Shown: in pieces, positions 30,127 to 45,737 of the stretch
How the letters are laid out: each line of letters starts with the position of its first letter
Position numbering within the stretch: the first letter of the stretch is position 1
From: a bacterium
GTDB lineage: Bacteria > SZUA-79 > Acidulodesulfobacterales > Acidulodesulfobacteraceae
DNA length: 64,000 bases
Direction of reading: 5' to 3'
Assembly (NCBI GenBank): GCA_021798875.1
Contig: JAJZBN010000001.1
Location: 1 to 64,000 of the forward strand
Translations under genes and position numbers: made by a program
The notes under the pieces: generated by a model
Told to the model about the DNA's origin: nothing
The model's input: the letters and a program-made list of their open reading frames with translations, nothing else
Database searches by the model: none

Positions 30127-30183
30127 AGGTGTCAGATTTATTTATTTTTCAAATAACAATAAATAATAGAAAATAATAAAACT

Positions 30184-30645
30184 ATGCTTGGAAATATTGC
30201 ATTAAATTTATCGGTAGATGCGGGGCTTTCGTTAGTCAACGACGTTATAGGCGCAGTTTCGGGAAACTTATCGAGCCGGTTGCTTCCTTCGCAGGGTAAT
30301 ACCGGTTCAAGCGCCGGTTACGGCTCGTCGGGTTTCGGCGGACAGGGATCTTTCGGCGAAATGCTTAATAATTCTATAGACAGCTTGTCTAATGCCTATT
30401 CTTCCGTTTCGGGCGGTGGTCAAAATCAAGGCGGGGCGGTTCAGCCTGCAAGCGTCTCATTTAAAGGTTACGGCGGCTCTCAGGCGGATAATGCTTCAGT
30501 TGCGTCTGCGCCTGTTTCGCAGACGGTCAGCCAGCCTAACAGCGGATTAAACTCTGCCTCTAACAATAACGGAGGCGCTCAGCCGGAAAACAATATAAGC
30601 GGAAGAATAAAAAAGGTGTCAGATTTATTTATTTTTCAAATTTAA
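30184..30645 (+). pseudogene. Truncated fliK copy 2 with repeat-encoded tail
   Basis: This 153-residue frame encodes the first 141 or so residues of FliK, apart from its start (MLGNIALNL versus MLNTLALNL). It then switches to a tail, KKVSDLFIFQI, translated from an AAAGGTGTC repeat. Positions 30202-30605 are identical by eye to 31530-31933. The 58 bp before the ATG match those before copy 1. It lacks the C-terminal hook-length domain, so it cannot be a functional FliK. It could still be secreted and interfere with hook-length control. Confidence 0.8.
30202..30605. repeat. 404-bp direct repeat, left copy
   Basis: This segment matches 31530-31933 without indels and, as far as can be read by eye, without substitutions (constant offset 1328 bp). 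The two copies flank the repeat cluster and the MNT/HEPN genes. Such identity implies a recent duplication or ongoing gene conversion. Recombination between the copies would delete exactly 1328 bp including the MNT/HEPN pair and leave one intact fliK. Confidence 0.9.
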
Positions 30646-30693: not shown

Positions 30694-31035
30694 TTGAAAA
30701 ATTTTGATAACTTAAATTTAAAATCTAAAGAAAAGAATGCTATATATTTATTTAGGAAAAAAGTTTTAAATTTATATCCTAAATCTGAGTTAATTATTTT
30801 CGGTTCTAAAGCGAGAGGAGATTTTAATAAAGATTCTGATATAGATATATTAATTCTCGTAGATGAAATAAACAATAAAGTTGAATCGGATATACACGAT
30901 ATTGTTTACGATATTATTTATAAATTTGAGATTCCTATAAATGAAACTATAGCGGAAAAAAAATTATTAGAAACCGCATGGTCGGTTCAAATACCTTTTT
31001 ATGCAAATGTAATTAAAGAAGGTGTTAAAGTTTAG
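30694..31035 (+). CDS. MNT-type nucleotidyltransferase (antitoxin-like)
   Basis: This 113-residue minimal nucleotidyltransferase has the signature GSKARGDFNKDSDIDILI. G37-S38 starts the motif and D49 and D51 are the predicted metal-binding aspartates. In HEPN/MNT modules the MNT protein neutralises the HEPN toxin, in characterised cases by adding AMP to it. The start is TTG, with the repeat-derived AAGGTG seven bases upstream. The stop overlaps the HEPN start by one base. The gene looks more AT-rich than the fliK copies around it, consistent with acquisition. Confidence 0.88.
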   Translation: MKNFDNLNLKSKEKNAIYLFRKKVLNLYPKSELIIFGSKARGDFNKDSDIDILILVDEINNKVESDIHDIVYDIIYKFEIPINETIAEKKLLETAWSVQIPFYANVIKEGVKV

Positions 31036-31490
31036 TGGATATTGAAATTAAAAAAGTTCTTGCAAAACATGAAATCGAAAAATCTAAAAAAGCCTTAGAG
31101 CAAGCATTAAATATTTTTCAAGGAAATGATTCTGATTTGCAATTAGTGGTTAATAGATTATATTATGCAAAGTTTTATGTTGTAAATGGACTTTTTATAA
31201 CAAAAGATTTTATGACATCTAAACATTCAAGCGCGAGAGCAATTTTTATTGCTGAATTTGTTAAGAAAGGCTTAATAGATGATGATTCGGGAAGATTCTA
31301 TTCAAATATGTATAATAGAAGACAGGAAGGGGATTATACTGATATTAAAAAATACCAAAATGTAGATATTAAAAATTTTAAATTTACCCCCACTCAATTT
31401 AAAAGAGAAGATGTTGAAGAGTGGATTGAAAAGACAAAACATTTTATTGAAAAAATTGAACAACTTATATATAAATTTCTTGAGCAATAA
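31035..31490 (+). CDS. HEPN-domain protein (toxin-like partner of MNT)
   Basis: This 151-residue all-helical HEPN protein has the N-terminal NRLYYAKFYVVNGLF helix and a second conserved block YNRRQEGDYTD (R95, R96, D100, Y101), typical of HEPN partners of MNT proteins. The classical Rx4-6H ribonuclease motif is not evident in that block, so RNase activity is uncertain. GTG start; it overlaps the MNT stop by one base, indicating translational coupling. Together they form a likely toxin-antitoxin module lying between fliK duplicates inside a flagellar operon. Confidence 0.82.
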   Translation: MDIEIKKVLAKHEIEKSKKALEQALNIFQGNDSDLQLVVNRLYYAKFYVVNGLFITKDFMTSKHSSARAIFIAEFVKKGLIDDDSGRFYSNMYNRRQEGDYTDIKKYQNVDIKNFKFTPTQFKREDVEEWIEKTKHFIEKIEQLIYKFLEQ

Positions 31491-31511
31491 AATTGATAAT
31501 AAATAACCTAT

Positions 31512-33542
31512 ATGCTAAATACTCTTGCTTTAAATTTATCGGTAGATGCGGGGCTTTCGTTAGTCAACGACGTTATAGGCGCAGTTTCGGGAAACTTATC
31601 GAGCCGGTTGCTTCCTTCGCAGGGTAATACCGGTTCAAGCGCCGGTTACGGCTCGTCGGGTTTCGGCGGACAGGGATCTTTCGGCGAAATGCTTAATAAT
31701 TCTATAGACAGCTTGTCTAATGCCTATTCTTCCGTTTCGGGCGGTGGTCAAAATCAAGGCGGGGCGGTTCAGCCTGCAAGCGTCTCATTTAAAGGTTACG
31801 GCGGCTCTCAGGCGGATAATGCTTCAGTTGCGTCTGCGCCTGTTTCGCAGACGGTCAGCCAGCCTAACAGCGGATTAAACTCTGCCTCTAACAATAACGG
31901 AGGCGCTCAGCCGGAAAACAATATAAGCGGAAGTATGCCTAATAGCAATACGAATAGCGGTAACGGTTATCCGGCGGGTCAGCCCGTAAGTAATAATGCC
32001 GGCGGGTCTTCAAACGCTGACGGCGGAAAAAGCGCCGCAAACGTTTCGTTCTCTAACGGCGATTCGCCGCAGGCTTCTGACGGAAATGGAAATACGGGAC
32101 ATACGTCCAATAATTCAGCAGGACGCGATTCCGCAAATAAATCTTCTAAAACCGCTTCGGAAAAAGACGGGAACGTCATATCTAACGGTAATGCCAATAT
32201 TCACGGTGGACGAAACGTTTATTTCATAGGAAATACGAATATTAATTTTGCAGGACAATTAGCAGCCGCAAAAAAAACAGATATAAAATCGGGCGGTACG
32301 GGCGGCAAAGGAAACGGCGCAGAAGGTGCGAATTCAAATTCAAAGCATAACGTAAACGTTTCATTATTGAACGCGAACGGGACGCCGGTATCGGACGGCG
32401 GTTCTATTGCCGGAAACGGAAATATCGGCGGCAGTTATTCCGGTATAAACGCGCTTGCGAATAACGTCAAAAATATTGGTAAAGAAGACCATCCTGCTTT
32501 GGGACATAATAACGCAAATAACGCAGCGTCAACTTCCGCAGGCGGTTCATCGTCCAAATCATCGGATGCAGCTGCTGCCGCTAATAAAAATACCGATAGC
32601 CAAAATATTACGGACAAAACCACCGCAAATAAAGCAAATCTTAATTCAAATACCGCCGATGCAAATAAAATTAATATTTCTAATGCAAACGCCGTAAATA
32701 ACGACGCAAATAACGGCAATAATACCGTAAAAGCCGACGTAAAAATGAGTATTATTAACGCTCAAAATGCAAAAACGCTGAACGAAGATATTAAAAATAA
32801 TGCTCTTAATTCCGAAAATCTTAAAAATTCGTTAGCCTCAGGTTTGTCGTTTTCCGGTTCCGCTGCATCTTCGGGAATTAACGCCGCAGGCGGTTTAAAA
32901 GCAGGAGATTCCGGTTCTTTATCTTCAAATATTTTCGGCTCCGCAGGTTCGGCGGTTTCAGCCTCGGCAAGTTCGGGGTCGCCTTCCGCTTCCGGCGGAA
33001 ATTCCTCAGGTTTTAGTTTGACCGGCAGCGGCGTGTCCGGACTCGAAGACGATACGGCAGGGGAAACTACAGGTTCTTTAGCGATTAATTCGGTTATGTT
33101 TATGCTGAGAAGAAACGTACAGTCGGCTGTTATAACGTTAAATCCTGCTTCGCTCGGCACCGTCAAAATAAATATTTCCTTAAACCCGTCAAATTCATTG
33201 AACGCGCTTAATCAAGCGGTTTCCGGAGGCGCTATAACTGTCAATATGCTTGCTCAGAACGAAGCGGCAAAAAATGCGCTTCAAGCGTCTTCAGATTCTC
33301 TGCAGAACGCCCTTAAAAACCAGGGATTTTCTACTATAAACTTGAATATAAGCACCGGTTCGGGTTATAATAACGGCAACGGCGGCGGCGCAAACGAATC
33401 TTTTAATAACTCTTTCGGGTCGGGCAATACGGGTTATAATTCAGGATATTCAAACGGAGAGGCAGAAATACAAGCTGTTTCAGCAGGAGCAAACGGTTTA
33501 AGATATGCTAATCCCAATGCATTGGTAGATTATTTCGTATAA
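31512..33542 (+). CDS. fliK: Flagellar hook-length control protein FliK
   Basis: FliK measures the hook during export and triggers the switch of export specificity through FlhB. This 676-residue protein is mostly Ser/Asn/Gly/Ala-rich and low in complexity, as expected of the long unfolded ruler. The C-terminal Flg_hook domain (about 520-625) has AVITLNPASLGTVKINISLN followed by a second strand-helix region. It is longer than the usual 400-500. The first 141 residues are duplicated upstream. No clear ribosome site precedes the ATG. Confidence 0.9.
   Translation: MLNTLALNLSVDAGLSLVNDVIGAVSGNLSSRLLPSQGNTGSSAGYGSSGFGGQGSFGEMLNNSIDSLSNAYSSVSGGGQNQGGAVQPASVSFKGYGGSQADNASVASAPVSQTVSQPNSGLNSASNNNGGAQPENNISGSMPNSNTNSGNGYPAGQPVSNNAGGSSNADGGKSAANVSFSNGDSPQASDGNGNTGHTSNNSAGRDSANKSSKTASEKDGNVISNGNANIHGGRNVYFIGNTNINFAGQLAAAKKTDIKSGGTGGKGNGAEGANSNSKHNVNVSLLNANGTPVSDGGSIAGNGNIGGSYSGINALANNVKNIGKEDHPALGHNNANNAASTSAGGSSSKSSDAAAAANKNTDSQNITDKTTANKANLNSNTADANKINISNANAVNNDANNGNNTVKADVKMSIINAQNAKTLNEDIKNNALNSENLKNSLASGLSFSGSAASSGINAAGGLKAGDSGSLSSNIFGSAGSAVSASASSGSPSASGGNSSGFSLTGSGVSGLEDDTAGETTGSLAINSVMFMLRRNVQSAVITLNPASLGTVKINISLNPSNSLNALNQAVSGGAITVNMLAQNEAAKNALQASSDSLQNALKNQGFSTINLNISTGSGYNNGNGGGANESFNNSFGSGNTGYNSGYSNGEAEIQAVSAGANGLRYANPNALVDYFV
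31530..31933. repeat. 404-bp direct repeat, right copy (inside fliK)
   Basis: This right-hand copy of the repeat also at 30202-30605 covers codons about 7-141 of fliK. The sequence diverges before 31530 (CTCTTGCTT in place of AATATTGCA) and after 31933, where fliK continues with TATGCCTAATAGC while the left copy runs into AAAGGTGTC repeats. Confidence 0.9.
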
Positions 33543-41328: not shown

Positions 41329-43431
41329 ATGGCTGAAAGAGCGGAAAACGCGGCGGTTTTGCCCCGCAATATATTTTTTAGGAATACCGACGTAATGCTG
41401 GCACTCCTTTTCATGATGGTTATAGGGCTTATGGTTATACCTATAACTACGTGGATGCTTGATATATTTCTTACTTTTTCGATATCTTTCGGCATAATAA
41501 TTCTTCTGATTTCTATTTACGTCCTAAGACCGTTGGAATTTTCGGTTTTTCCGACTATTCTTTTGACGGCGACCCTTTTCCGTCTTTCTTTGGAAATTGC
41601 GGCTACAAGACTTATATTGCTTTACGGCTACAAAGGTCCGGATGCGGCCGGCGTCGTCATTCAGTCTTTCGGGCAGTTCGTCGTAGGCGGAAATTTTGCG
41701 GTAGGCATAGTAATATTTATAATTTTTATAGTAATAAATTTCTTGGTTATTACAAAGGGCGCAACCAGAGTAGCCGAAGTATCGGCAAGATTTACGTTAG
41801 ACGCATTGCCTGGAAAGCAGATGTCTATAGACGCGGAACTTAATTCAGGTTTTATAACGGATGCGGAAGCAAGGAAAAAAAGGTTGGATTTAACTAAAGA
41901 AGTTGATTTTTACGGTTCCATGGACGGTGCAAGCAAATTCGTCAGGGGAGACGTAGTAGCAGCTATAATCATTATTATAGTAAACATAATCGGCGGACTT
42001 CTTATAGGAATATTTCAGCATCATATGTCTATTTTGCAGGCCGCTTCGGATTATACGCTTCTCACGGTAGGCGAAGGCTTGGTGGCACAGATTCCCGCTT
42101 TAATAGTTTCGACTTCCGCAGGTATTATAATGACCAGGGCAAGCCGCGAAAGCGACCTGTCCAAAGATTTTTCAAACCAGTTTATATCTAATCCGAGAGT
42201 GCTTTATACGGCCGCAGGCATACTGTTTTTTTTCGGAATTATCCCCGGACTTCCTCACTGGCCGTTTATTTTGTTTGCGGCGATAGCAGGATTAATAGGA
42301 TATATAATATCAAGGGAAGCAGCTAAGAAAAAAACCGAAACCGCCAAAAAAACTGCCGAAGAAAAGAAAGAAATTCCGGAATCGCAGATAATAGAAAATG
42401 CGATGCAGATAGATATTCTAGAGCTCGAAGTAGGATACAACCTTATACCGTACGTAGATGCCTCCAGAAGCGGCGAACTTTTGGAAAGAATAAAAGGCAT
42501 AAGGAAACAGCTTGCGTCAGATATGGGTATTATAGTTCCGCCTATCCACATCAAAGATAATTTAAATTTAAAACCAAACGAGTACATTTTTTTAATTAAA
42601 GGTATAGAAACCGCAAGATACGAAACTATGCCGAATAAACTTCTTGCGATGAACCCGGGCAGCGTTTCCGAAAATATTCCCGGCGTAGTTACTAAAGAGC
42701 CTGCGTTTAATTTACCTGCGCTTTGGATCGACGAAGGATTAAAACAGAAGGCGATAATGGCAGGATGGACTGTCGTTGAAATACCCGCTGTTATAGCGAC
42801 GCACATAGTAGAAATTATTAAAAACAATGCTGCGGAACTACTTACCCGCCAGGATGTTCAAAAACTTCTCGATATACTTTCATCTAAATACCCAAAAATC
42901 GTGGACGAACTTATTCCCGGAGTTCTTTCCCTCAGTTCCGTCCAGAACGTTTTAGAGAATCTCCTTCAGGAAGGAATTCCTATTAAAGATATGCTTACCA
43001 TAGTAGAAGCTCTGCATAATTATGCGCCCAATACCAAAGACCCGACTATACTTACGGAGTACGTCAGGAGCGCTTTAAAAAGAACTATAACAAAAACATT
43101 GCTTGGGCAGGACAATGCGGTTCATCCTCTTTTGCTCGGAAAAAATTTAGAAACGGTAATTATAAACGAATATAATAAAACTAAAGAGCAAGGACAGGGT
43201 TATTCGGGTATCGATCCTTCTTATTACGGCAAAATGGTTTCTGCGGTAAAAGAAGGCGTAAAAAAAGCATTGGATTCCGGACAGTCTCCCGTTATCATGA
43301 CTCAGCCGCGAATAAGGCTTTTTTTGAGAAATATTTTAAACGAAATAACACCCGGCATAACCGTAGTTTCGACGGGAGAGATTTCTCCCAACATTAAAAT
43401 TAAACCGGTCGGTACCGTTGAAATATCTTAA
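41329..43431 (+). CDS. flhA: Flagellar export gate protein FlhA
   Basis: FlhA is the major export gate subunit and chaperone-substrate docking platform. About eight transmembrane helices lie in residues 20-335. The cytoplasmic FHIPEP region is conserved (KGATRVAEVSARFTLDALPG, then GKQMSIDAELNSG). The C-terminal domain (about 360-700) ends the protein. The length of 700 is typical. It starts 3 bp after the flhB stop. Confidence 0.97.
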   Translation: MAERAENAAVLPRNIFFRNTDVMLALLFMMVIGLMVIPITTWMLDIFLTFSISFGIIILLISIYVLRPLEFSVFPTILLTATLFRLSLEIAATRLILLYGYKGPDAAGVVIQSFGQFVVGGNFAVGIVIFIIFIVINFLVITKGATRVAEVSARFTLDALPGKQMSIDAELNSGFITDAEARKKRLDLTKEVDFYGSMDGASKFVRGDVVAAIIIIIVNIIGGLLIGIFQHHMSILQAASDYTLLTVGEGLVAQIPALIVSTSAGIIMTRASRESDLSKDFSNQFISNPRVLYTAAGILFFFGIIPGLPHWPFILFAAIAGLIGYIISREAAKKKTETAKKTAEEKKEIPESQIIENAMQIDILELEVGYNLIPYVDASRSGELLERIKGIRKQLASDMGIIVPPIHIKDNLNLKPNEYIFLIKGIETARYETMPNKLLAMNPGSVSENIPGVVTKEPAFNLPALWIDEGLKQKAIMAGWTVVEIPAVIATHIVEIIKNNAAELLTRQDVQKLLDILSSKYPKIVDELIPGVLSLSSVQNVLENLLQEGIPIKDMLTIVEALHNYAPNTKDPTILTEYVRSALKRTITKTLLGQDNAVHPLLLGKNLETVIINEYNKTKEQGQGYSGIDPSYYGKMVSAVKEGVKKALDSGQSPVIMTQPRIRLFLRNILNEITPGITVVSTGEISPNIKIKPVGTVEIS

Positions 43432-43454: not shown

Positions 43455-44654
43455 ATGCAGATTAAAAGATACGAAGTTTTAGACATTAAAGATGCGATAG
43501 ACCTTATAAAAAAAGATCTCGGCGAAGATGCGCTTATTATTTCTACGAGACAGGTTAACGGCTCTTCAGGAGAACTTGGCTTTTTCGGTAAACCGTTTCT
43601 GGAAGTTATCGCGGCTATAGATTATAAAGAGGAAGATATGGTACCGCCTAAAGACGAATCGCCGCTTTTTAATAAGGATTTGCTTGCGCCTATTTACGAC
43701 GATGTCAGATTTTTAAAAGAAAATTTCGATAGTATAGTAGAAGACAAAGTCGATTATGCTCTTAACGTCAAATTTAAAGAAATAAAGAACTTTATGGAGG
43801 AAATAAAATTCGATTTAAATTTGCTGAAAAACGAAAGATCGCATAGTGCAGGACTCAAAGAAAACGATTTGCTGATTTATTTGGACGGCGTTTCTTTTGA
43901 CAGAAGCGTATCTTCTAAATTGATAGATATATTTTTTAAAGGGATAAAATTGTCTAATTTTAAAAAAGAAGATAAAATCGAATATTTCAAGAAATTTTTC
44001 AAAAAGATAATAGAGAAAAAAACCGAAAGAAAAAAATTCATCCGTTCTTTAGACGGCAAAATAGTAATAGCGGTTGCCGGCAACAGCGGTTCCGGTAAAA
44101 CATCTACGGCCGCAAAGTTATGCTCTAAGTTTATCTACGAGAAAAATCTTCACGTTTCTTTATGCTCCATAGATTCTTTAAAAATGGGAGGATATGAAAC
44201 TTTAAAAAATTATGCCGGAAAGCTTAAAATAGATTTCGCGATAGCAAAGGATCCATCCGTATTGAATGCTTTTATCGCAGGTTCGCGTTCGGACGTCGTA
44301 ATAATAGATACATTTGCGGTTAACCATAATAATGTTTACCGTTTAAACGCGCTTGCTAAATTTTTTGAAGGGCTTAAGGGTTCCGTTAATATAGAACTTA
44401 TAGTTCCTGCGCATTTTAAACATATAGACGCATTAAGGTCGTATGAATCATTCAGGAATAAAATAGGAGTTAACGGAATTATAATAACTAAAACTGACGA
44501 ATCGAAAGGTATCGGCAATCTTGCCGGTTTGTTTATGCTTGAAGATTCTGCCGTAGATTACGTGTCTTACGGAGAAAGCGTTCCGGAAGATATCGAAGAA
44601 GCAAGTGCAGGCAGCATTTACGACTTATTTTTTCCAAAGCCTGCGTCATTCTAA
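43455..44654 (+). CDS. flhF: SRP-family GTPase FlhF, with altered G3 motif
   Basis: FlhF sets flagellar placement and number together with FlhG. The N-terminal domain (KRYEVLDIKDAIDLIKKDLG) and the NG GTPase domain (about 190-395) are present. The P-loop reads AGNSGSGKTS (208-217) and G4 is TKTDES. The usual DTAGR G3 motif is replaced by DTFAVN (D285-N290), losing the glycine used in catalysis. It may therefore bind GTP but hydrolyse it poorly. The stop is followed at once by a palindromic repeat. Confidence 0.9.
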   Translation: MQIKRYEVLDIKDAIDLIKKDLGEDALIISTRQVNGSSGELGFFGKPFLEVIAAIDYKEEDMVPPKDESPLFNKDLLAPIYDDVRFLKENFDSIVEDKVDYALNVKFKEIKNFMEEIKFDLNLLKNERSHSAGLKENDLLIYLDGVSFDRSVSSKLIDIFFKGIKLSNFKKEDKIEYFKKFFKKIIEKKTERKKFIRSLDGKIVIAVAGNSGSGKTSTAAKLCSKFIYEKNLHVSLCSIDSLKMGGYETLKNYAGKLKIDFAIAKDPSVLNAFIAGSRSDVVIIDTFAVNHNNVYRLNALAKFFEGLKGSVNIELIVPAHFKHIDALRSYESFRNKIGVNGIIITKTDESKGIGNLAGLFMLEDSAVDYVSYGESVPEDIEEASAGSIYDLFFPKPASF

Positions 44655-44734
44655 CTGCGGGGACAGAATTCAATTCCGTCCCGCCGCAAATCGGAAAATG
44701 GAAATCGTGGACAGAATTCAATTCTGTCCCTGCC
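44655..44734. repeat. EcoRI-core palindromes between flhF and flhG
   Basis: Two imperfect palindromes lie here (44655-44688 and 44707-44734), each with a GACAGAATTCAATTCTGTC-type core (variant bases in the first), flanked by G/C runs (TGCGGG and CCCGCC). They are separated by CAAATCGGAAAATGGAAATC. Three related copies lie at 45625-45737, on the other side of flhG. In RNA each would fold into a strong hairpin. Confidence 0.88.
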
Positions 44735-44761
44735 AAAAAAAAGAAACTGAGGAATGTAAAA

Positions 44762-45619
44762 ATGAAAAGACAAGGAAACTTAAACGGCAATTCATACACT
44801 AAAATAATTTCGGTTACAAGCGGCAAAGGAGGAGTCGGCAAAACCAATATCGTCTGCAATCTTGCCTATTGTTTTGCTTCTATGGGAAAAAGGGTTATAA
44901 TAATGGATGCAGACCTGAGTTTAGGAAACGTTTCGGTTTTAATGGGCATGATTCCGAAATATAATATATCGCAGGTTATATACGGAGATAAGCAGCTAAG
45001 CGATATTATAATGACCGACCAGAACGGAATTATGATTCTTCCTGCCTCATCAGGAATACCCGAACTTTCTAATCTTACCGAACCGCAGAAAATAAATCTT
45101 ATGTCGAGATTCGACGAATTTGCCGGCAGTTTGGAAGCCGGAGGACAGCCCATAGACGTTTTGTTAGTCGATACCGGAGCGGGTATATCGTCAAACGTTT
45201 TATATTTTAACCTTGCCGCAAGCGAAATATACGTTATAGTTACTCCGGAACCTACTTCCATTACCGATGCTTATGCCCTGATTAAGGTCTTAAGCACTAA
45301 ATACAGCGAAAAGTATTTTTCTATTATAGTTAATAACGTAAAAAACGAAAAGGAAGCAAAGGACGTTTATAAACACTTAAGTCTCGTTTCCGATAAATTT
45401 CTTAAAGTAAATTTAAATTATCTCGGACATATCGTAAGCGACGATAATCTTTCGCGTTCGGTGATAATGCAGAGACCTGTCTCAAATATTTTTCCCGATT
45501 CAAAATCTTCTCAATGTTTTAAAAAAATGGCGTATAATATATTATCTCAAAAAGACAATAAAATATCTAACGGCAACATCCAGTTCTTTCTCAACAAACT
45601 GCTGACGTCGTTGTCTTAA
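44762..45619 (+). CDS. flhG: MinD-like ATPase FlhG/FleN
   Basis: FlhG is a ParA/MinD-type ATPase that limits flagellar number. The deviant Walker A SGKGGVGKT (20-28) has both lysines, with IMDADLSLGN following. The C-terminal region (about 255-285) may hold the membrane-targeting helix. Only about 14 residues precede the ATPase core, and the DQAxxLR-type activator helix that stimulates FlhF in characterised systems is not visible. A TGAGGAA ribosome site supports the ATG. Palindromic repeats flank the gene. Confidence 0.93.
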   Translation: MKRQGNLNGNSYTKIISVTSGKGGVGKTNIVCNLAYCFASMGKRVIIMDADLSLGNVSVLMGMIPKYNISQVIYGDKQLSDIIMTDQNGIMILPASSGIPELSNLTEPQKINLMSRFDEFAGSLEAGGQPIDVLLVDTGAGISSNVLYFNLAASEIYVIVTPEPTSITDAYALIKVLSTKYSEKYFSIIVNNVKNEKEAKDVYKHLSLVSDKFLKVNLNYLGHIVSDDNLSRSVIMQRPVSNIFPDSKSSQCFKKMAYNILSQKDNKISNGNIQFFLNKLLTSLS

Positions 45620-45624
45620 TTTAA

Positions 45625-45737
45625 CTGCGGGGCAGAATTCAATTCTGTCCCCGCCACAAAATGGAAAGCGGAATTCAATTCCGACCCATCACAAATTGGA
45701 AAACTGCGGGACAGAATTCAATTCTGTCCCCGCCACA
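45625..45737. repeat. EcoRI-core palindromes between flhG and fliA
   Basis: Three tandem palindromes (about 45625-45656, 45664-45690 and 45704-45737) have an AGAATTCAATTCTGTC-type core and CACAAAATGGAAA-like spacers. They share the sequence of the pair at 44655-44734. The last one ends ten bases before the fliA ATG. An open frame runs through it in the fliA phase but is unlikely to be coding. Confidence 0.88.

Follow-up and report, generated by a model that had tools for sequence, protein, structure and literature searches.

The window, a 64,000-nt stretch of bacterial DNA, encodes a flagellar cluster in which flhA (41329–43431), flhF, flhG and a gene for a flagellar-type sigma factor follow one another in this order; FliM, FliN, FliG and two sigma-54 activators are also encoded in the window. 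The genome to which it belongs is 2.5 Mb in size, assembled in 126 contigs and 97% complete. The features considered here are the following.

43455–44654, + strand: flhF, encoding an SRP-type GTPase homologue of 399 aa, single copy in its genome
44762–45619, + strand: flhG, encoding a MinD-type ATPase of 285 aa, with the KGGVGKT core and the C-terminal GNIQFF end intact and no activator helix
43455–43634, + strand: FlhF residues 1–60, an N-terminal domain of the FliG-binding type (FID), the most conserved part of FlhF in the window's family
44079–44105, + strand: FlhF G1/P-loop GNSGSGKTS, residues 209–217, Walker A intact
44172–44204, + strand: FlhF G2 DSLKMGGYETL, residues 240–250, with the arginine finger R replaced by K243 and Gln by T249
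44307–44330, + strand: FlhF G3 DTFAVNHN, residues 285–292, with D kept and AGR replaced by FAV, followed by an invariant NHN
44487–44504, + strand: FlhF G4 TKTDES, residues 345–350, guanine recognition retained
44762–44803, + strand: FlhG residues 1–14 (MKRQGNLNGNSYTK), the expected site of DQAxxLR as read from the sequence

The G motifs of the window FlhF read AGNSGSGKTS (G1), DSLKMGGYETL (G2), DTFAVN (G3), TKTDES (G4) and GESVPEDI (G5). The protein resembles FlhF, and its gene precedes flhG in a flagellar cluster; its P-loop, G3 Asp and G4 TKxD are kept in 23/23 family rows, with T, S or A as the first G4 residue; the G2 DTxR arginine finger is missing, Lys being found instead at all 24 family loci. 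TIGR03499 was its best NCBIfam match, at 130.5 bits against a curated cut-off of 174.15, and the protein therefore appears recognisable as an FlhF yet unusually diverged. PF00448 matched it above the cut-off, and the closest solved structure was that of B. subtilis FlhF (2px0, E 7.1e-14). The own genome encodes exactly three SRP54-type GTPases, FtsY (L001/L002), Ffh (L001/L002) and FlhF, of which FtsY and Ffh have ordinary G motifs with DTAGR kept. The window FlhG has the deviant Walker A core, the position adjoining flhF and the GNIQFF-type C-terminal end of the FlhG/FleN/YlxH group, and its closest solved structures are those of FleN (5j1j, E 3.8e-58); the N-terminal DQAxxLR enhancer helix, which is not universal in that group since Pseudomonas FleN is reported to lack it (PMC12713375), is absent from 25/25 FlhG N-termini of the window's family. 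Only 14 residues (MKRQGNLNGNSYTK) precede IISVTSGKGGVGKT. Against the model for bacterial cell-division MinD (TIGR01968) it scored 96.8 bits, below the cut-off of 212.9, and falls outside that family. No MinD above the cut-off was detected in the own genome, which is an incomplete assembly.

We searched 61 genomes, 30 of the window's family and 31 others. Beyond the family, the next relatives in this search share only the rank of domain with the window, and its group is therefore called phylum-level here; the family relatives examined are metagenome-assembled genomes, whose sample names suggest an origin in mine drainage, and the group may be Candidatus Acidulodesulfobacterales (SZUA-79). FlhF was found in 22 of the 30 family genomes and, with second copies in G001 and G003, at 24 loci. 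These second copies sit next to two FlhA copies, and the same G3 motif occurs in both FlhF copies; given the two FlhA copies, both bins are likely mixed. The original prediction, made from the window alone, had pointed out that G3 reads DTFAVN where SRP GTPases have DTAGR, that about 14 residues precede the FlhG core without a DQAxxLR helix, and that the two halves of the pair are altered together. These readings were confirmed and hold throughout the family: G3 is D[TS]F[AG]VN at 24/24 loci where it is readable (17 DTFAVN and 7 DSFGVN), and DQAxxLR is missing from every one of the 25 FlhG N-termini read, of which 24 adjoin FlhF and one is from G018. The FlhG core of the 24 FlhF-adjoining copies starts approximately 11–14 residues past the likely start, and KGGVGKT and other core stretches are invariant in the 22 full-length family rows. 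A loose helix pattern, counter to the absence of the helix, flagged 7 of 23 family FlhG rows; these flags appear, from the residues involved, to reflect a Q-T-K-I-I stretch that leads into the first strand of the core and is no helix.

Several trivial explanations were rejected. In most relatives, an in-frame stop codon shortly before the FlhG start excludes a missed longer start; the window, L013, L014 and L019 have a frame that remains open beyond this point, with no DQAxxLR in the upstream stretch read. Relocation of the helix to another protein was discounted because the DQAxxLR codon pattern has no match in the own genome, and misassembly, a sequencing slip or general degeneracy because the 24 loci agree and FtsY and Ffh of the own genome are normal.

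FlhA was present in 23 of the 30 family genomes and FlhF in 22 of these 23, the exception being G002, whose FlhA is truncated by the end of a contig; FlhF therefore seems to be retained wherever flagella appear to be retained. The 99% complete family genome G018 (L074, 3087–4297), which has no FlhA, keeps a 129-aa N-terminal FlhF fragment with no G domain, together with an FlhG with an intact core and the sigma factor, adjoining a sigma-54 regulator. The counterpart of this regulator in the window lies approximately 26 kb upstream, and the intervening flagellar genes seem to have been deleted in G018. A 51-residue FlhG remnant (51% identity) was found at G007:C78:13814–13966, in a family genome that has neither FlhA nor FlhF.

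To define which FlhF residues had changed, we compared 23 family rows with 62 FlhF proteins from other bacterial families, among the matches listed, whose adjoining FlhG carries a strict DQAxxLR-like motif. G209, G212, G214, K215, T216, A220, K221, D240, D285, K346, E349, G373 and P377 are kept in 23/23 family rows and in 62/62 of the outside proteins among the matches listed, and D348 in 23/23 and 61/62, respectively, within the same set. The P-loop AGNSGSGKTS, singled out in the original prediction, was correctly read but is ordinary, GxxxxGKT being intact and the G1 residues kept in 23/23 rows. By contrast, position 243 is Arg in 62/62 of the helix-paired FlhF proteins among the matches listed and Lys in 23/23 family rows, as well as in the partial 24th locus, L025, and position 249 is Gln in 62/62 of those outside proteins but Thr (16) or Ala (7) in the family. 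T211, invariant in helix-paired FlhF among the matches listed, and Q374 (now Glu or Gly; Q374E in the window) are lost in 23/23 family rows, T217 is replaced in 22/23, and the DxxG glycine at 288 is Ala in 16/23 rows and gone from 17/24 loci. The G2 DTxR motif bears an arginine finger that facilitates hydrolysis (PMC10910532); its loss (R243K), which the original prediction did not list, any more than Q249T and Q374E, is a stronger change than that in G3. Since the kept and lost residues divide along binding and catalysis, the residues needed for GTP binding would remain and those needed for hydrolysis would be gone, and we read the family FlhF as a GTP-binding, probably non-cycling protein. 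T211 and Q374, which are placed near the nucleotide, are among the changed residues, and GTP binding is thus a prediction from the residues that are kept. An AlphaFold model of single-chain window FlhF with nine relatives had a mean pLDDT of 51, too low for the pocket to be judged.

One run beside G3, V289-N290-H291-N292, is invariant in the 23 rows from four genera; only seven invariant stretches, this one included, reach four residues or more. It could be that catalysis has been rebuilt in cis, with V-N-H-N contributing a polar residue that takes over from the FlhG glutamine and making FlhF a self-contained GTPase, an idea favoured by the invariance of the run across genera whose synonymous divergence is saturated in places. 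However, the arginine finger has been lost too, Asn 290 or His 291 is also carried by B. subtilis and other canonical FlhFs, so that the motif is not unique, and the quality of the model does not allow V-N-H-N to be positioned; we regard this possibility as very unlikely.

A 2025 review (PMC12826062) describes stimulation of FlhF by FlhG as the core of a switch in which the GTPase requirement varies among species, and the glutamine of the FlhG DQAxxLR motif stimulates hydrolysis by FlhF (PMC12826062, PMC11236974). The G3 arginine alone is not decisive, because the GTPase of S. putrefaciens FlhF (structure 8r9r, organism from PMC10910532), in which G3 is DTAGMG, is stimulated by FlhG (PMC11236974), and because L114 and L115, which are the closest rows to the family in the tree (support 89, not starred), combine G3 His or Gln and G2 Arg with a normal FlhG helix. 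The view of G3 as the decisive altered site was therefore abandoned, the G2 losses being the stronger evidence. Alignment of related FlhF and FlhG proteins, proposed with the prediction as a check, upheld the joint change across the whole family, while the counter-evidence that it had named, a normal helix in relatives, turned up beside the non-Arg G3 of L114 and L115 and applies to G3 taken alone.

With B. subtilis (2px0, 2px3, 3syn) and S. putrefaciens (8r9r) the window's family shares the flhF-flhG order, the B-N-G architecture and the nucleotide-binding motifs, but unlike both it lacks the helix, the arginine finger and the G2 Gln. As in P. aeruginosa, where FleN is reported to be without DQAxxLR (PMC12713375), the partner has no such motif, and the window FlhG best matches FleN structures; P. 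aeruginosa FlhF, however, keeps the arginine finger R251, and its GTPase activity is lost upon the R251G substitution (PMC6092412), whereas the family has Lys in 24/24 loci. The closest parallel in V. alginolyticus is the R334A mutant, altered at the residue equivalent to K243, in which GTPase activity is abolished even with FlhG while polar localization and flagella are normal (PMC6092412); that case is a laboratory Ala with FlhG intact, whereas here a natural, fixed Lys goes with an altered FlhG. In the same species FlhF G380A is more strongly polar and motility is reduced (PMC6092412), and G380, being the DxxG Gly, would by motif be equivalent to A288 of the window. Hydrolysis is dispensable for FlhF localization in P. 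aeruginosa and V. alginolyticus (PMC12713375). Each half of the idea, a helix-less FlhG and dispensable hydrolysis, thus has precedent. In the literature searched, which was mostly open-access, we came across no natural FlhF described as lacking the arginine finger, and no lineage described as having lost finger and helix jointly.

FipA (PF10975) had matches in 0/30 family genomes. As a control, a first set of genomes gave no match and a second search matched 1 of 6 other genomes (G311), indicating that the model works. Polar recruitment of FlhF in the family may use something other than FipA.

The family FlhF G domain is under purifying selection, as indicated by dN/dS values of 0.06–0.16 in family pairs with unsaturated synonymous change and by the G3 block, in which pN is 0.000 and pS 0.90 between L009 and L013. 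The N-terminal domain is conserved even more strongly: 38 of the 60 FID positions are invariant in 23 family rows, and family pairs with a G-domain identity of 0.45–0.85 have an FID identity of 0.78–0.98. At a G-domain identity of 0.55–0.65, residues 1–55 are 0.78–0.87 identical in family FlhF (mean 0.83, 116 pairs), compared to 0.27–0.75 in other FlhFs (mean 0.56, 15 pairs), and the FID was more conserved than the G domain in 210/210 family pairs versus 152/699 other pairs, pairs that are not independent. Combined with the FliG-binding role of the N-terminal domain in S. putrefaciens FlhF (PMC11236974), this pattern suggests that the family, unlike other FlhFs, protects the end that binds FliG more strongly than the end that carries the GTPase.

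Such a bias could mean that the G domain is simply decaying, its changes being drift, and that FlhF acts through its N-terminal domain as a scaffold independent of nucleotide, as the lower conservation of the G domain and the G-domain-less fragment in G018 would allow. We find this very improbable, because the P-loop and G4 residues are kept in 23/23 rows and dN/dS is well below 1; moreover, G018 has no FlhA, so its fragment is uninformative on flagellated cells. The original prediction had left the choice between a GTP-bound and a nucleotide-independent FlhF. The residue pattern fits the former, and the latter is disfavoured by the retention of the nucleotide-binding residues.

The selection on the G domain is also compatible with an FlhF that still hydrolyses GTP usefully, with K243 taking the role of the arginine finger and with stimulation coming, through a different contact, from FlhG or some other partner such as FliG. 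Arg to Lys at 243 is a conservative replacement, counter to our main reading, and three other lineages, L127, L137 and L138 (G039, G326 and G187), have G2 Lys together with an ordinary G3 (DTVGRS) and an FlhG with a Q-bearing helix of the NQ/IQ type, so that Lys might still support catalysis. Furthermore, P. aeruginosa FlhF is GTPase-active (PMC6092412) although FleN is reported to lack DQAxxLR (PMC12713375), and a different contact must hold there as well, provided that FleN acts on FlhF in the first place. On the other hand, in the family G2 has lost both R and Q, the DxxG Gly is gone at most loci, and the G domain has drifted much faster, compared with the FID, than in other FlhFs. We therefore consider useful hydrolysis in the family to be unlikely.

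Overall, the residue pattern suggests an FlhF uncoupled from FlhG, with poor or absent hydrolysis, and we think it probable that the pair's hydrolysis switch has been taken apart and the remainder of the system preserved. With G1, the G2 Asp, the G3 Asp and G4 in place, FlhF would still bind GTP-Mg, probably form the GTP dimer and stay in the active form, whereas without the arginine finger, the G2 glutamine and the G3 AGR segment its GTP hydrolysis would be very slow or nil. Assuming polar flagellation, stable GTP-bound FlhF would present its highly conserved N-terminal domain to FliG and thereby recruit it, and the turnover of FlhF would proceed by dissociation, exchange or dilution, not by FlhG-triggered hydrolysis. 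FlhG, which keeps its core and C-terminal membrane-type end, would act as a MinD/FleN-like ATPase on other partners, the candidates being FliM/FliN or a sigma-54 regulator. Accounts of the switch place FlhG-stimulated hydrolysis at its conserved core, although model species differ in whether their cells need it; a lineage that has neither arginine finger nor helix and has kept FlhF along with flagella is a natural experiment, the implication of which is that what is conserved may be the need for GTP binding, with hydrolysis as an optional addition.

Correlated losses elsewhere would provide further FlhF/FlhG pairs for testing that implication. Of 120 outside FlhF rows, 30 had no close FlhG match and were left out, giving 90 outside rows among the matches listed; G128 and G204 (contig ends) and G045 and G192 (Ffh-looking) were also left out of the outside set. 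G3 Arg was present in 51/62 strict-helix and 13/28 other outside rows among the matches listed (Fisher p 0.0009), 11/62 strict-helix pairs among them thus having no G3 Arg. After unclear N-termini had been read by eye there were, among the matches listed, 69 helix-bearing rows (55 with G3 Arg) and 23 helix-lacking rows (4 with G3 Arg; 7 being family representatives); the helix-lacking outside pairs keeping G3 Arg are L134, L148, L153 and L155 (4/16 among the matches listed). In three other, distant lineages, L112 (G296), L139 (G372) and L162 (G051), the G2 Arg and G3 Arg of FlhF are both replaced and the adjoining FlhG has no DQAxxLR.

A tree was built from 94 FlhF/FlhG pairs, the outside rows being among the matches listed, after L062, L065 and L102 had been removed and the family reduced from 23 rows to 7, with L146 and L150 coded as ambiguous; it requires at least 11 helix changes. 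For the 94 pairs, a Pagel-type test of G3-Arg loss against helix loss favoured dependence (LR 16.6, p ~0.002), with p = 0.008 when the family was excluded and 0.05 when the long branches L112, L143 and L162 were excluded as well; 1 of 40 simulated nulls reached at least the observed value (LR 14.0 in that refit). For G2 R and Q against the helix, p was 0.047. In the fitted rates, helix loss mainly follows G3-Arg loss (1.18 versus 0.008), and G2 R and Q are lost for the most part once the helix is gone (0.97 versus 0.035). These tests are exploratory, with analyst-made state coding, one quick tree and long branches, and an independent-pairs test of the helix against FlhF residues had only three usable pairs and no power; for these reasons the correlated loss of G3 Arg and helix across lineages is treated as a lead. 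It is conceivable, though rather doubtful, that bacteria have repeatedly made FlhF a fixed GTP-bound scaffold by the ordered loss of G3 Arg, FlhG helix and arginine finger, the window's phylum-level lineage being the end state without a GTPase cycle.

Two sets of repeats were also observed in the window. GACAGAATTCAATTCTGTC-like palindromic repeats lie at 44662–44680 and 44710–44728 in the flhF-flhG gap and at 45631–45649 and 45710–45728 in the gap between flhG and the sigma factor gene, with 8 strand matches at no more than 3 mismatches against 0.02 expected. Exact GACAGAATTCAATTCTGTC-like copies occur in 7 of 165 loci, including L003 and L004 (the window region), L002 (own genome) and some family relatives. 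A 300-nt direct repeat, 98% identical, occupies 30183–30482 and 31511–31810 and corresponds to a duplicated 5′ end of a fliK-like gene; between its two copies lies a small ORF (31035–31490) that looks HEPN-like by eye.
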